A program made the translations under genes and the position numbers. A stretch of DNA of 60,589 bases from positions 1-60,589 of IMG/VR virus record IMGVR_UViG_3300008120_000040; one strand, given 5' to 3'. The notes under the pieces are model-generated. The model was not told the DNA's origin, made no database searches, and saw nothing but the letters and a program-made list of their open reading frames with translations. This DNA is from a virus. This document shows positions 15,749-42,719 of this stretch, piece after piece (position 1 is the stretch's first letter; every line of letters begins with the position of its first letter).

Positions 15749-18700
15749 TTATCTATTGTTTAAAGGTTGTAATATTCCTAATTCTGCGTAATACAAATCT
15801 ACTAAGTTTTGCGGATTTGTAGCTTTTAAGTTCAATTCAAGCCATGAACCCCTCAGCACCTTGCCCTCATATAATCCACCAGTGCTGTTTATATCTCTTT
15901 TAAAAGACGCATGATATTTATCATCTTTCATCTTAAAGTCGGTACTTAACAGCTTTGAATTGTTATTCATATTGGTAACAATGTCGCTAGTTAAAGGGGC
16001 TACCCATGTTGTGTTACCCAATGTAGTAAGCGTATTATAATGCTTTTTTATATTAGGAGATTGATTAAATACAAGCTTTATAGAAGGAGTTTGCTGAACT
16101 CCATAAAAGTTAGCATAGGCTGTTGTATTATTATGAACCCATAATTCTCCAGATTTCCATGATATAATTACATTGCCAGCAACAGTAATCCATTCTGGGT
16201 TGTAGTCATAAAAAGCGCTATATGCATTCCTAGGCTCAGAGAATCCAAATGTATAATCAGGAATAGTGCTTCCACTTCCTTGCATAACGGTTATAAACTC
16301 TTCTTCAAATGCATCATAAACACCTAATACTTTAGCATATCCGCCATTACCAAACTTATCTGCATTATTTGTTTTTTGATACTTTGTAATCTTATCTGTA
16401 AGGAAAAAGTGAGCTTTATATGTTTCACTTATAGAAGTAATGCCGTCTGTAGATAATCTTACTTGACATCCCAAAACAGGGTCTGTAAAGTAATCTGCAT
16501 TTGCAGAAGAAGCTAAAGAACAGAATTGCTCTCCTATACCATATTCTCCTTGATAATATTGTATCTTATTTAATACCTGTGTACTTTGAGAAACAACACT
16601 TCCGCCATCTGCTGTTTGTAATACGTTTTGGTCTATAGGAACTATCCCGCATGCTCTGCTTTGGAATACTCTTAATTGTTGACCTCTTGACTTAAGTCTT
16701 TGAATATCTCCTTTTTGTCTATCGTATTCATCAATGTTTTCAGCAGCAAATCTATTTGTATTATTGATATTAGTTCCTTGCTCGTATTCCCCAGAGTATC
16801 TTATAAGAGTTGGGTAGTATGTTTCTTTAGCGTAGTCATCTATAACAAAAGTCCTACCATTGCCATCCACTTTAGAAGCGAACTTATCTGAAACAGACAT
16901 ATCTATAACATAGTGATTATTGCTTCGTTGTCTATTATATACATCTCCTCTATAAAAAGTATATTTAGCTGGTCTAACTCCAGCTCCTATTATTTGATTC
17001 TGTCCAGACCCTTCATGTACAAGATTACTATTAGCATCTGTTATAATAGAGTAATTTTCTCCAAACTCATAATAAAATTGGTCGTTTATATTTGAGTTAT
17101 AAAAAGGAGTATATGGCTCTATATAATAAGTGCTAGTTGATGTATCCCAACTTGACATTAAATCAGCAGAATATTGAATTTTTAACCAATATCCAACCGC
17201 TGAATCTCCTTCTGGACTAACAGTCAATACATCTAGTATTGGTAAGTCTTTTAAAAGCGTTGTATTTGAATTCAAAATACCATATATCTTCACACGGTCT
17301 CCTTTTACATATTGATATGCTGGGTATCCGTTTTTATTTGCGTTGTATGTACTTATATCCATATAGGCAAAATCAGCATCTTTATGAAGCTTATTTGTAG
17401 TAGCCCATACAAAGTTAGATACTGTTAAATTTTTAGTTCTTACAAATGAGAATGTCTTAGCCCAAGATGGAGGTGCATGATTAATTTCAAAATTAATATT
17501 AGGATTATTAATAGTAGCTATACCTATATTAGCAGATGATAATTGAGGAGTGATAACCTTCATTGAATCGTTAGTAACAACTCCATTTGTAATACCAAAT
17601 TCATCAAAATAAACAATTCCAAACTTATAAGTTGAACTATGTTTATATGCCGATATATTTACATCTGTAGGTGTTGAAGTTGAAGTTAAGTCAACATAAT
17701 AAGTACCTACAACATCCCATGTTATTTTAATTGCTCCAGGTAAATAAGTTATTAATATACCATTAGTTCCGCTATCTGTCGCTGTTAATTTAGTTTCTGC
17801 ATCTATTACTGCTTTAAAGTAATTCTTTATATCAGTTAAAGTATTTCCAGAAGAAACTGTATATGAATAACCATATGTTTCTTCAAAAGTTTCTGCAGGG
17901 GAAACATTATCATTTGTAACTGTAACAGTTAAATTCAAATCAATTTTATCGCCTGTAGCAGGAACTCCACTAAATGTATACTTCCAGTTTCTTCCAAAGT
18001 CCTGAGCTAATACATCAAGTAATGCAGTAGGAGCTACTTGGTCAACCGTATTAGATACAGATAATGTTCCGCTAAATGTATTTCCTTCAAGTATACCACC
18101 ATAAGCAAGTATATTCCCATTCAATAACTCTTGAGTATTAGCCTTCTTAGGCACATAGTCAAAAAGCTGTAAACTTTCAGACTGACTTGCAAATGGATAC
18201 GTTCCATCATTATAAAAATTATACACTCTTGTTGCATCACTAGGCATATCCAATTTAATCTTGTCTAGCACGGCAACTATCATTCTATCTGAAAAAGTAA
18301 CTCCTATAGTTTCTCTTGCAGATATTTCTATTTTAGAACAGTCTAATGAGCCAGTGTTATATGTAACGCTAATTACATTGTTTTTTGTAGGGTCTGCATC
18401 AACAGTTAAATCACTAATATTTAATGGAGCAAATAATTTACTCCAAGGACTCCATGTAGATTTAGTATTATCCTTGTATACCCATCTATAACTAAACTGA
18501 AATAGTTTACTTCTTAAGTTGTTTGCTGCATCTGGACTATCTCCATATTGACATACAGGTGCTTTTGTTGGCATTTTTCTAGCAACCGTTAAGTAATCCT
18601 TCTTCCATGCTGTACCATAAGTTTTCCCAGAAATAGTAGCTTCTCTGATATTAAGCTTCATAGGTCTGTTTTTTCTATCAGTCCAATGAAGTACATCTCC

Positions 18701-37925: not shown

Positions 37926-37976
37926 TCATACGCGCATACGCGCACATACGCACGCACGTACACACGCATACGCGCG
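37926..37976. other. 51-bp perfect alternating purine-pyrimidine tract
   Basis: Every one of 51 consecutive bases alternates pyrimidine and purine, mostly CG, CA and TA steps (CATACGCGCATACGCGCACA ...). Such tracts can form Z-DNA under negative supercoiling. It is strikingly CG-rich for this A/T-rich genome and lies about 100 bp before the early leader. Confidence 0.8.
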
Positions 37977-38050
37977 CCCTATATCCTTATAGGGAGGCTG
38001 TAAAAAAGCTTTAACAAGAGTTTAACAATAAATATTTGGAGGGTCTAAAA

Positions 38051-38058
38051 TATGTTTG
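38051..38058 (+). promoter_or_regulatory. TATGTTTG -7 box, probable early promoter
   Basis: Matches TAnnTTTG. It is the last such box on the plus strand before the early genes. No good TTTG -33 element lies at the usual 19-21 base distance (a TTTG at 38035 is too close). A start near 38065 would give a leader of about 400 nt. Confidence 0.45.
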
Positions 38059-38064
38059 CACTTT

Positions 38065-38391
38065 TACAATGTCAACGGGGGACACCCCAACGACGCAGTT
38101 CTTTACAAGGTGGGTCACTCTAGGTAATCATTCCTAGGTAAGCACGACCCGATATCGCGAAAGGTTAGACAATCTGACTAAGTAGCACGAAAGGATATCC
38201 GCTAGGCCAACAAGCACACCAACAACCAACACACACCATCACCGCGCTGAGGGTATAAAAAGAGAGCGGGTAAGTAGCTACCACCTACATAGGTAGCGAT
38301 GACCTTACAGCAACGGAATCTGATTCTAGAATAATAGAATGGACGAGCTGAGATTGTCTCAGTTGCAGTCGGTTTACTAGGACGATAGCCC
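38065..38391 (+). ncRNA. Structured 5' leader upstream of early genes
   Basis: Several strong local hairpins follow one another: GGGTC/GACCC closing CTAGG/CCTAG (38112-38150 region), GTTAGA/TCTGAC near 38165-38180, GCTACC/GGTAGC near 38277-38298, and CTGAGA-TTG-TCTCAG near 38350. CGAAAGG occurs twice between two GATATC words. The absence of an ORF and this density of stems suggest a folded RNA. It leads directly into the type III hammerhead. No known riboswitch class is recognised. Confidence 0.5.
38120..38137. repeat. CTAGG...CCTAG inverted pair, copy 3
   Basis: CTAGG (38120-38124) and CCTAG (38133-38137) enclose 8 bases and lie inside a GGGTC/GACCC pair, so this copy would be the apical stem of a leader RNA hairpin. 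Confidence 0.5.
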
Positions 38392-38446
38392 AATGTACGC
38401 GGTTAAAAAAGCACCGCGCTGACGAGTCACAGAATGACGAAACATT
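38392..38446 (+). ncRNA. Type III hammerhead ribozyme
   Basis: All core parts are present in order: stem III AATGT (38392-38396), cleavage triplet GTA with predicted cut after 38397, stem I CGCGGT/ACCGCG (38398-38403 with 38413-38418), CTGACGA (38419-38425), stem II GTCA/TGAC (38426-38429 with 38435-38438), GAAA (38439-38442), and closing CATT (38443-38446). With the last A of GAAA, that pairs 5 bases of stem III. Every stem is fully Watson-Crick. It lies 20 bases before the first early ATG. Cleavage would leave the early mRNA with two 5' hairpins. Activity is inferred from the complete core. Confidence 0.88.
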
Positions 38447-38465
38447 AACAAAAAACCTATGTATT

Positions 38466-38699
38466 ATGAACAAAGATTACATCGTATCAATTACCAAGAC
38501 AAGCCATTTTAACCTAGATTACAAGCAATTAGCTATTGCCTACGAGCTTAGCACATGGGATGAAGCATGCGAGAAGTACAAAGAATGCGTCGCAGATGAA
38601 TCCATGCACGTTTCTACCTTAAACAGCGTGAGGTCAAGCGTAACTATCACGATGGCGCACAAGGACAGCATCCAATATAGAGTAAACATATACAACTAA
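38466..38699 (+). CDS. First early gene, unknown function (77 aa)
   Basis: 77 residues (MNKDYIVSITKTSHFNLDYK ... IQYRVNIYN), soluble, with no recognised domain. It is the first ORF after the control region and lies between two hammerhead ribozymes, so its message may be cut out of the long early transcript together with the next gene. The A-rich leader AACAAAAAACCTATGTATT is typical of non-Shine-Dalgarno starts. Confidence 0.75.
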   Translation: MNKDYIVSITKTSHFNLDYKQLAIAYELSTWDEACEKYKECVADESMHVSTLNSVRSSVTITMAHKDSIQYRVNIYN

Positions 38700-38710
38700 A
38701 ATTTAATACC

Positions 38711-38953
38711 ATGGAACAATTACTAAGCAACAAGTATGAGCAACTATGCGACACGCTGTCAATAGTTGAGGAATTCGTAGGTGAACTTGCAAGCGCACGC
38801 ACCCAAATGGATATAGCTGTTAAACTATGTCCATACGTAGACAATTTAAAAAACCTAGTAAGAGACAATCCTAGTATTGTACGTGAGACCATTGCGCACG
38901 ACTACATAGGATTAAGAGACGAGGACGAGGATTTTTTACCAAGACTAGCATAA
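38711..38953 (+). CDS. Early small acidic protein (80 aa)
   Basis: 80 residues, acidic and helical (LSNKYEQLCDTLSIVEEFVG, then DYIGLRDEDEDFLPRLA). It lies 11 bases after the first early gene, and its stop is one base before the stem I of the type I hammerhead, so both genes share the ribozyme-bounded segment. The function is unknown. First-expressed phage genes of this size often encode host-takeover proteins; nothing in the sequence proves that here. Confidence 0.75.
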   Translation: MEQLLSNKYEQLCDTLSIVEEFVGELASARTQMDIAVKLCPYVDNLKNLVRDNPSIVRETIAHDYIGLRDEDEDFLPRLA

Positions 38954-38954
38954 A

Positions 38955-39010
38955 GGTTAACTGACGAGCTGTTTATCAGCGAAATGCCCGCCCCCACGGG
39001 TATCTTAACC
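38955..39010 (+). ncRNA. Type I hammerhead ribozyme
   Basis: Core in order: stem I GGTTAA (38955-38960), CTGACGA (38961-38967), stem II GCTG/CAGC (38968-38971 with 38977-38980), GAAA (38981-38984), stem III TGCCCG/CGGGTA plus the core A-U pair (38984-38990 with 38997-39003, one G-U), cleavage triplet ATC ending at 39004, and stem I partner TTAACC (39005-39010). The predicted cut is between 39004 and 39005, leaving a 22-nt A-rich leader on the next gene. All conserved core residues are present. Confidence 0.9.
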
Positions 39011-39026
39011 AAAAAAAATAAATGTT

Positions 39027-39950
39027 ATGAGAAATCAAACAGCACCAAAAGTATTAGACGAGACATCAAGATTCAGCGCAAAGACAACAGCAAGCGCGGA
39101 GCGTAGTATTGACACAATCCTAGAGAACAGCAGACAAGACAATGTCTTTGTTGAATCCTCAATTGTGAGTTTATCTGAAATCACAGGTATGGCCACACGT
39201 AAAGGACTAGAGCAAGCAGTTATCTGCGAGAACGAAATCGTTAACGTGGTATCATCTAGCTACGGACACCTAGACAATCGTAAATTCTACTACGAAGCAG
39301 AATCAAAGTTGATTGACGCTGACATCTACTACAAACAGCGCTCAGTGAACAAGGATAACCGCTCATTCGCAGTGGATTATGTCCTAGCAGATGACCGCTA
39401 CAAGATTGAAATCAAGGGTGAACAAGACATCCTACGTCCAATGTTACGATTCGTTAATAGCTACGATGGTAGCTGTAAGACTAGCGGGTCTATCGGATTT
39501 TGGCGCAAGGTATGTGACAATGGTTTACATGTAGCTAACTTCAACATCGGGTTTAGTGTTAAGCACCGCGGTAATATTGCTGAGGTAGTTATGCCTAAGC
39601 TAGACGAGATTGTAGGTCAGTTTATGGACAACGAATTCTTTACCCTTAAGCGTAAGTTTGAGGTGCTTGCAGAGCGTCCCGTTACTAATGTAGAAGACTA
39701 CGTAAAAGCTACAGCTAAGACCCTAGGGTTATTCAAATACGAGGCATCGGATAAGAATCCCGAGCCTAGCGCTAACGCACGTTTTGTCTTTGACGTAATC
39801 AACCGCGAGTCTAAGCTATTGAATACACGTCCTAACCAATGGATTGTATACAACGCATTCAACGAGCTGTTACATGGCAAGTTAAAGAAGACGTTTGACC
39901 AACAAAAGAATCTTGACGAGCAATTGTTCGAGACAATCTATGCAGGCTAA
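39027..39950 (+). CDS. DUF932-family phage/plasmid protein (307 aa)
   Basis: 307 residues. The middle part (YKIEIKGEQDILRPMLRFVN, SYDGSCKTSGSIGFWRKVC, DNGLHVANF) is the hallmark of the DUF932 / phage-plasmid-like family, whose biochemical role is unsettled. It is preceded by the type I hammerhead cut site 22 bases upstream and followed by a strong terminator, so it may be produced as a separate, probably abundant message. Codon use is less A/T-biased than neighbours (GCA, CGC, CGT present), consistent with high expression. Confidence 0.8.
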   Translation: MRNQTAPKVLDETSRFSAKTTASAERSIDTILENSRQDNVFVESSIVSLSEITGMATRKGLEQAVICENEIVNVVSSSYGHLDNRKFYYEAESKLIDADIYYKQRSVNKDNRSFAVDYVLADDRYKIEIKGEQDILRPMLRFVNSYDGSCKTSGSIGFWRKVCDNGLHVANFNIGFSVKHRGNIAEVVMPKLDEIVGQFMDNEFFTLKRKFEVLAERPVTNVEDYVKATAKTLGLFKYEASDKNPEPSANARFVFDVINRESKLLNTRPNQWIVYNAFNELLHGKLKKTFDQQKNLDEQLFETIYAG

Positions 39951-39962
39951 TACATCACCACG

Positions 39963-39989
39963 GGAGGGGCGCAATGCTCCTCCTTTTTT
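39963..39989 (+). terminator. Rho-independent terminator after the DUF932 gene
   Basis: GGAGGGGC (39963-39970) pairs with GCTCCTCC (39976-39983) around GCAAT, followed by six T residues. It ends the first early unit. Confidence 0.88.
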
Positions 39990-39992
39990 ATA

Positions 39993-40008
39993 TTATCTAA
40001 ACTAATAA
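39993..40008 (+). promoter_or_regulatory. Repeated leader element TTATCTAAACTAATAA, copy 1
   Basis: A 16-base word found exactly three times and once in a variant form, always 2-5 bases before a start codon on the plus strand. It carries no TAnnTTTG box. This copy precedes the ATG at 40013. Confidence 0.55.
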
Positions 40009-41394: not shown

Positions 41395-41407
41395 ACAATT
41401 ATTATAT

Positions 41408-41423
41408 TATCTAAAATATTAAC
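41408..41423 (+). promoter_or_regulatory. Leader element, variant copy 2
   Basis: TTATCTAAAATATTAA, a variant of the 16-base element, lies 3 bases before the ATG at 41427. Confidence 0.45.
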
Positions 41424-42079: not shown

Positions 42080-42086
42080 TATTAAA

Positions 42087-42102
42087 TTATCTAAACTAAT
42101 AA
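42087..42102 (+). promoter_or_regulatory. Leader element, copy 3
   Basis: Exact TTATCTAAACTAATAA, 2 bases before the ATG at 42105. Confidence 0.55.
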
Positions 42103-42662: not shown

Positions 42663-42703
42663 GTTAACGTGGGATGCGACACGTACAACGCATACTTTTT
42701 AAA

Positions 42704-42719
42704 TTATCTAAACTAATAA
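42704..42719 (+). promoter_or_regulatory. Leader element, copy 4
   Basis: Exact TTATCTAAACTAATAA directly before the ATG at 42721. Confidence 0.55.

Follow-up and report, generated by a model that had tools for sequence, protein, structure and literature searches.

Clustered hammerhead ribozymes that flank genes in prophages were described in 2011, and a function in transcript processing was proposed for them (Perreault et al., PMC3088659). Three natural prophage arrays were cleaved in vitro and one in E. coli, and circular products of the arrays were not detected (PMC3088659). According to a 2017 review, the role of hammerheads in prokaryotes is an open question (PMC6155905). The locus considered here belongs to a virus and lies in the 60,589-nt IMG/VR record IMGVR_UViG_3300008120_000040, the whole of which is referred to below as the window. 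It holds two hammerheads that are on the same strand and flank genes, with predicted cuts 607 nt apart: a type I element directly before a DUF932 gene and a type III element ~0.6 kb upstream, the latter absent from the first-pass annotation of this DNA (Table).

The gap between the stop codon of the 80-aa ORF (TAA, 38951-38953) and the DUF932 ATG at 39027 measures 73 nt (38954-39026) and, judged by its sequence, its fold and its match to a held-out model, the element that occupies most of it is a genuine type I hammerhead ribozyme squeezed between two genes. Every position of the conserved core C-U-G-A-N-G-A / G-A-A-A / U-H fits, with N7 being C and H17 being C39004. Stem I is open and stems II and III are closed by loops, which is the same arrangement as in the minimum-energy fold of 38954-39012 (-18.1 kcal/mol, versus -10.8 with an sd of 2.6 in dinucleotide shuffles; z -2.83), and this fold persists within 261 nt of message context. 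Read base by base, stem III consists of seven pairs, including A15.1-U16.1 and one G-U. The first-pass annotation had claimed a complete type I hammerhead before DUF932, with stem I GGTTAA/TTAACC, stem II GCTG/CAGC and a seven-pair stem III, in a gap of 73 bases and leaving a leader of 22 nt on the DUF932 message; the core, the stems and the covariance model match confirm the element, and the coordinates, the pair counts and both lengths proved right. We infer self-cleavage of this element from its sequence, structure and comparison with relatives, presumably at 39004/39005, a position that is taken from the known hammerhead consensus.

The type III partner came from the same core motif. A four-base-pair stem II is formed at only two cores in the window, that of the type I hammerhead and one at 38419, which in the alternative permutation proves to be a complete type III hammerhead, with stem III open, stems I and II closed, and CAGAA as loop II. 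Its minimum-energy fold agrees with this structure, and the energy is ordinary (z -0.89). The element ends ~20 nt upstream of the first of two small ORFs, for neither of which was a Pfam or PHROG match found.

Table. Features of the hammerhead locus, with positions numbered along the window.
Feature	Position	Strand	Basis or remark
Promoter-like TATGTTTG, Bacteroidota -7 type TAnnTTTG	38051..38058	+	Motif search
Structured non-coding leader, ~330-340 nt, between TATGTTTG and type III	38059..38391	+	Homologs, double changes
Type III hammerhead	38392..38446	+	Structural scan, held-out model R2, fold
Type III stem III; H17; stem I	38392-38396/38442-38446; A38397; 38398-38403/38413-38418	+	
Type III core; stem II; GAA	38419-38425; 38426-38429/38435-38438; 38439-38441	+	
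Predicted type III cut	38397/38398	+	
Small ORF, 77 aa, first cistron of predicted excised RNA	38466..38699	+	ORF list
Small ORF, 80 aa, stop directly before type I hammerhead	38711..38953	+	ORF list
Type I hammerhead, whole element, flanking A's included	38954-39011	+	Sequence, fold, held-out model R1
5' strand of stem I, GGTTAA, preceded by flanking A38954	38955..38960	+	Sequence, fold, held-out model R1
Type I core CTGACGA	38961..38967	+	Sequence, held-out model R1
Stem II GCTG (38968-38971) / CAGC (38977-38980), loop TTTAT	38968..38980	+	Fold, family loop pattern U-N-N-A/N-U
Type I core GAA (38981-38983) plus A15.1 (38984)	38981..38984	+	Sequence, held-out model R1
Stem III (38984-38990 / 38997-39003) and loop	38984..39003	+	Fold, held-out model R1
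Predicted type I cleavage site, after C17 (39004)	39004..39005	+	Hammerhead consensus position
3' strand of stem I, TTAACC, followed by flanking A39011; predicted 5' end of DUF932 mRNA	39005..39010	+	Sequence, fold
DUF932 gene, 307 aa	39027..39950	+	Pfam PF06067, E 1e-15; phrog_21518, E 1.3e-105
Terminator-like hairpin with T run, after DUF932	39962..39984	+	Type I hammerhead there in L007, L008

Covariance models of the two types, R1 and R2, were trained on other contigs, with this phage and its DUF932 kin excluded, and each has its sole match in the window at the expected element (R1 at type I, 53.0 bits, E 3e-11; R2 at type III, 58.2 bits, E 5e-16). The bare pattern CTGANGA...GAAA is present in the window at chance level (5 matches, 4 expected), and the evidence therefore lies in the stems and flanks. 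Rfam 15 reported neither window hammerhead, at the gathering threshold or at E 10, the only weak match at the type I site being to the unrelated IsrR, and at its thresholds it reported no hammerhead in 14 related array loci. Related type I copies score 19.9-31.9 bits against RF00163, for which the gathering score of 34 is a detection threshold rather than a property of the type I class, and the window copy goes unreported; related type III copies reach ~45 bits against RF00008, with a gathering score of 48.5.

A further test came from pattern searches in which stems were left unconstrained. A pattern fixing stem I and the core only retrieved at least 120 stretches, and among the matches listed both remaining stems are formed in 110 of 147 distinct inserts, against 0.24 expected after shuffling. 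With patterns of the core and loop II, complete type I hammerheads made up 152/159, 120/124 and 116/127 of the matches listed (0, 0 and 1 in the flank-shuffled controls), and a pattern with the CAGAA loop gave 90 stretches, 75 of the 80 distinct matches being complete type III hammerheads versus 3 in the control. Both sides have changed at paired positions in 249 of 720 cells for type I and 106 of 285 for type III; the rows for these counts were chosen for pairing, for which reason the pattern-based tests give the clearer evidence. Scanning 531 loci under strict structural criteria ultimately gave 704 copies of type I and 123 of type III; in shuffled sequence (233 loci, 4.2 Mb, both strands) the scan gave no full match.

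The family that emerges is compact. When stem I was left free in the scans, 423 non-redundant type I copies among the matches listed showed 121 different stem I words, from which it follows that the apparent universality of GGTTAA is partly a search bias. The base outside stem I, again among the matches listed, is A in 405 of these 423 copies on the 5' side and in 397 on the 3' side, and in an earlier subset the outer stem I pair is G-C in 120 of 132 copies. Five-base loops II, tallied in a set that is largely GGTTAA, mostly follow U-N-A-N-U (U1 in 154/154, A3 in 142/154, U5 in 142/154), and the window loop UUUAU, with U at position 3, is a minority form. For the type III members that were fetched, the CAGAA loop II was part of the search pattern. 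Fast hammerhead cleavage at low magnesium needs a tertiary contact between stem I and loop II. Neither an internal loop nor a pseudoknot of the kinds described is present in the window stem I, and for this reason such a contact can only be proposed; the flanking A's together with loop II would be the best candidate for it.

Among DUF932 relatives in IMG/VR, a type I hammerhead lies before the DUF932 gene in seven related contigs (L001 and L003-L008), all with the same stem I and, near-identical pairs aside, with stems II and III that differ yet pair. In several of the DUF932-relative contigs, additional hammerheads precede other genes of that operon. In L002 a plain G5/C5 hairpin stands before DUF932 in place of the hammerhead of its kin, which shows that cleavage at this junction can be dispensed with. 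After DUF932 there is a hairpin with a T-rich tail in the window, L001, L003, L005 and L006, and a hairpin without such a tail in L002 and L004; in L007 and L008 the place is taken by a type I hammerhead. Given that hammerhead and hairpin swap at one junction, they probably perform the same task, namely making or protecting mRNA ends and separating neighbors, and the exchange around DUF932 is the chief comparative argument for mRNA segmentation and for protection of the ends.

This phage system is abundant and its layout stereotyped. Relative to the upstream stop codon, the first base of type I elements has a median position of -2 nt, and 73% lie within 30 nt (8% in the control); from the cut to the following start codon the median distance is 28 nt, with 62% of cuts no farther off than 60 nt (11% in the control). 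Type III comes first in 50 of the 54 locus-strands that hold both types, the two types are never on opposite strands, and all type I copies are on one strand in each of the 157 loci with at least two. Type III is preceded by a longer gene-free stretch, with a median of 385 nt under one ORF cut-off and 751 nt under another, and in nearly half of the cases the nearest upstream ORF is on the opposite strand; this is the placement expected at the head of an operon. Twenty whole records, picked from loci with hammerheads or DUF932 and thus giving counts that are not frequencies among phages at large, contain one to five type I copies in 19 cases and a single type III in nine. The layout recurs in hundreds of other phage fragments, where it probably serves to divide long transcripts.

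As to the host, the DUF932 protein matches phages of Flavobacterium psychrophilum at 55% identity, and the window phage probably infects Flavobacterium-like bacteria. No hammerhead was found before the gene in the F. psychrophilum phage DUF932 loci (L011, L012, L015), no blastn match of the 7-kb surroundings was found among INPHARED phages, and a blastn search of cultured phages with 62 nt of ribozyme as query gave nothing useful. Cultured Flavobacterium phages of the elemo group have the same pair of type III plus type I; their representative vB_FspP_elemoE_6-9C (MT497072) carries a type III hammerhead at 18096-18154 and a type I hammerhead at 16302-16363, both on the minus strand, the type III heading a minus-strand gene run beside a divergent plus-strand run. 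The 7.8-kb stretch around this pair matches 68 records, all of them Flavobacterium phages with Flavobacterium sp. BAL314 as host. The annotated antisense CDS elemo69C_phanotate41 (16289-16396) covers the type I hammerhead of MT497072 and is probably a spurious gene call that fills the ribozyme gap.

The sequence, structure, conservation, placement and hairpin exchange that we observe lead us to postulate cleavage, the chemical ends it would leave and an effect on stability. We estimate a probability of about 0.85 that an active type I hammerhead cuts the nascent transcript and works with the type III hammerhead to split the transcription unit, uncoupling neighboring genes. Transcription would start near 38051, where TATGTTTG may head the unit as its promoter (similar motifs are present in L001, L003 and L008), and would run to the terminator-like hairpin at 39962. 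Within this unit the nascent phage transcript would be cut co-transcriptionally at 39004/39005 by type I, and at 38397/38398 by type III, to yield a leader RNA, a 607-nt mRNA (38398-39004) that contains both small ORFs, and ~0.98 kb of mRNA for DUF932. The body of the type I ribozyme would stay with the upstream mRNA, whose 3' end would carry a 2',3'-cyclic phosphate and be backed by the hairpins of stems II and III, and the DUF932 mRNA would acquire a short, A-rich 5'-OH leader, UUAACCAAAAAAAAUAAAUGUU, and end at the hairpin at 39962-39984. The likeliest purpose would be to uncouple the stability and translation of adjacent genes that share a promoter. That the hammerhead uncouples the DUF932 mRNA from the genes before it had been suggested at first pass, and the suggestion gains comparative support from the relatives, the placement and the hairpin exchange, the cleavage itself being what we infer. 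More tentatively, and at well below even odds, the layout of the phage early operon may be hard-wired, such that the type III at the head frees a boxA-like structured leader as a non-coding RNA with a role of its own (e.g. antitermination or decoy) and the type I elements divide the downstream cistrons into mRNAs whose 5'-OH leader is fixed and whose 3' end is protected by a hairpin.

The putative structured leader RNA is a lead outside the main claim. It has homologs in eight other contigs (L001, L004-L007, L534, L537 and L539), upstream of the first early gene, and no Rfam 15 match was found for 38059-38391. Paired changes are evident by eye (GATATC/GATATC, GATAAC/GTTATC, GATAAT/ATTATC, GATGAT/ATCATC), and RNAalifold on six sequences gave double changes in 32 of 63 pairs. 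A boxA-like GTTCTTT lies within the leader at 38098-38104. In L005, L006, L007, L534, L537 and L539 the leader ends, in place of the window's type III hammerhead, in ACATA/TTAACCA, which resembles a type I hammerhead in its 3' half; a local hammerhead was considered at the leader 3' end of these six contigs and rejected, the half-site being alone and CTGANGA absent nearby.

Several ribozyme classes seem to share these contigs. L022 holds a twister-P3 ribozyme (174-241, above the Rfam gathering threshold) ~370 nt before a type I hammerhead, and L194 a type II hammerhead (697-762) near a CAGAA-loop core. Elsewhere in the window, ATTATCTAAACTAATAA is found just before start codons downstream of DUF932, exactly at 39992-40008, 42086-42102 and 42703-42719 and with 2 mismatches at 41406-41422; with up to 3 mismatches there are 6 matches versus 1.5 expected, and it is possibly a promoter or an initiation element. 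A non-coding, alternating purine-pyrimidine tract of the ACGCGCATACGCGCAC type occupies 37931-37984 between divergent operons, and Rfam returned only chance-level microRNA matches for it.

Other explanations of the type I element have to be weighed against transcript segmentation. It is unlikely, in our estimation, that the element is mainly an intergenic hairpin, serving as a 3' stabilizer or attenuator, with cleavage that in the cell is slow or has no relevance. In favor of it are the stability of the stem III hairpin and the plain hairpins that substitute at orthologous junctions in L002 and L004, but a plain hairpin needs no intact catalytic core, stem I, flanking A's or conserved loop II, and it is these that are kept in hundreds of copies in which the stem sequences vary freely. 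Chance resemblance or a dead relic is scarcely credible. The bare core pattern is no commoner in the window than chance would have it, which is in keeping with such an origin; however, all core positions are intact, and relatives retain the element at this junction while its paired bases change together. On these comparisons chance resemblance is already excluded by the E-value of the independent covariance model, by conservation and by the lack of a single full match in the shuffled sequence.

It was also conceivable that the shared stem I word re-pairs the ends of an excised mRNA to form closed-loop or self-ligated circular mRNAs, and this was the leading idea while an early subset looked promising. 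Stem I likeness is higher within contigs than between them (0.759 versus 0.485; 0.831 versus 0.525 in the earlier subset). However, stems II (0.651 versus 0.540) and III (0.602 versus 0.467) trend likewise, if less strongly, and the directional test was null (22 versus 24), upon which the idea was dropped. Stem I moreover differs in 101 of 171 neighboring pairs, the window has a single type I copy, and the search for circular products in 2011 detected none (PMC3088659). Duplication plus slower change of stem I is enough for the within-contig likeness, and we now regard circular mRNAs as very improbable. Segmentation of the transcript by active hammerheads is the reading that we retain.

That prophages contain hammerhead arrays, and that these cleave, is already known since 2011, and the prophage arrays, including the triple array at ardA of Agrobacterium tumefaciens, likewise place several close hammerheads around single genes or short blocks in phage-derived DNA (PMC3088659). 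Unlike those arrays, the present ones have a fixed order, with type III at the head and type I between genes. Their type I copies have in common a stem I that is compact at 6 bp, an A on either flank and U-N-A-N-U as loop II, and the carriers include aquatic Flavobacterium-type phages with one cultured representative. Some of the present copies may be among the 2011 examples. With the Schistosoma-type type I of Rfam (RF00163) the window element has the core, the open stem I and the closed stems II and III in common, and it differs in having no internal loop in stem I; the element at 38392-38446 shares the permutation and intact core of type III (RF00008) and differs in its CAGAA loop II. Theta (HDV-like) ribozymes of gut phages are phage-encoded and self-cleaving too, but they have another fold and are described as tied to tRNA-based recoding rather than to protein-gene junctions (PMC10879173). 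The fixed order, the compact stem I and the sub-threshold Rfam scores are additions, in that we did not find them in the literature examined, and a cultured phage with the pair is a further addition. A large set of phage ribozymes falls below the hammerhead thresholds that Rfam now applies, and the fixed order, hairpin exchange and cultured carriers make the role of prokaryotic hammerheads directly testable in a single infection experiment.
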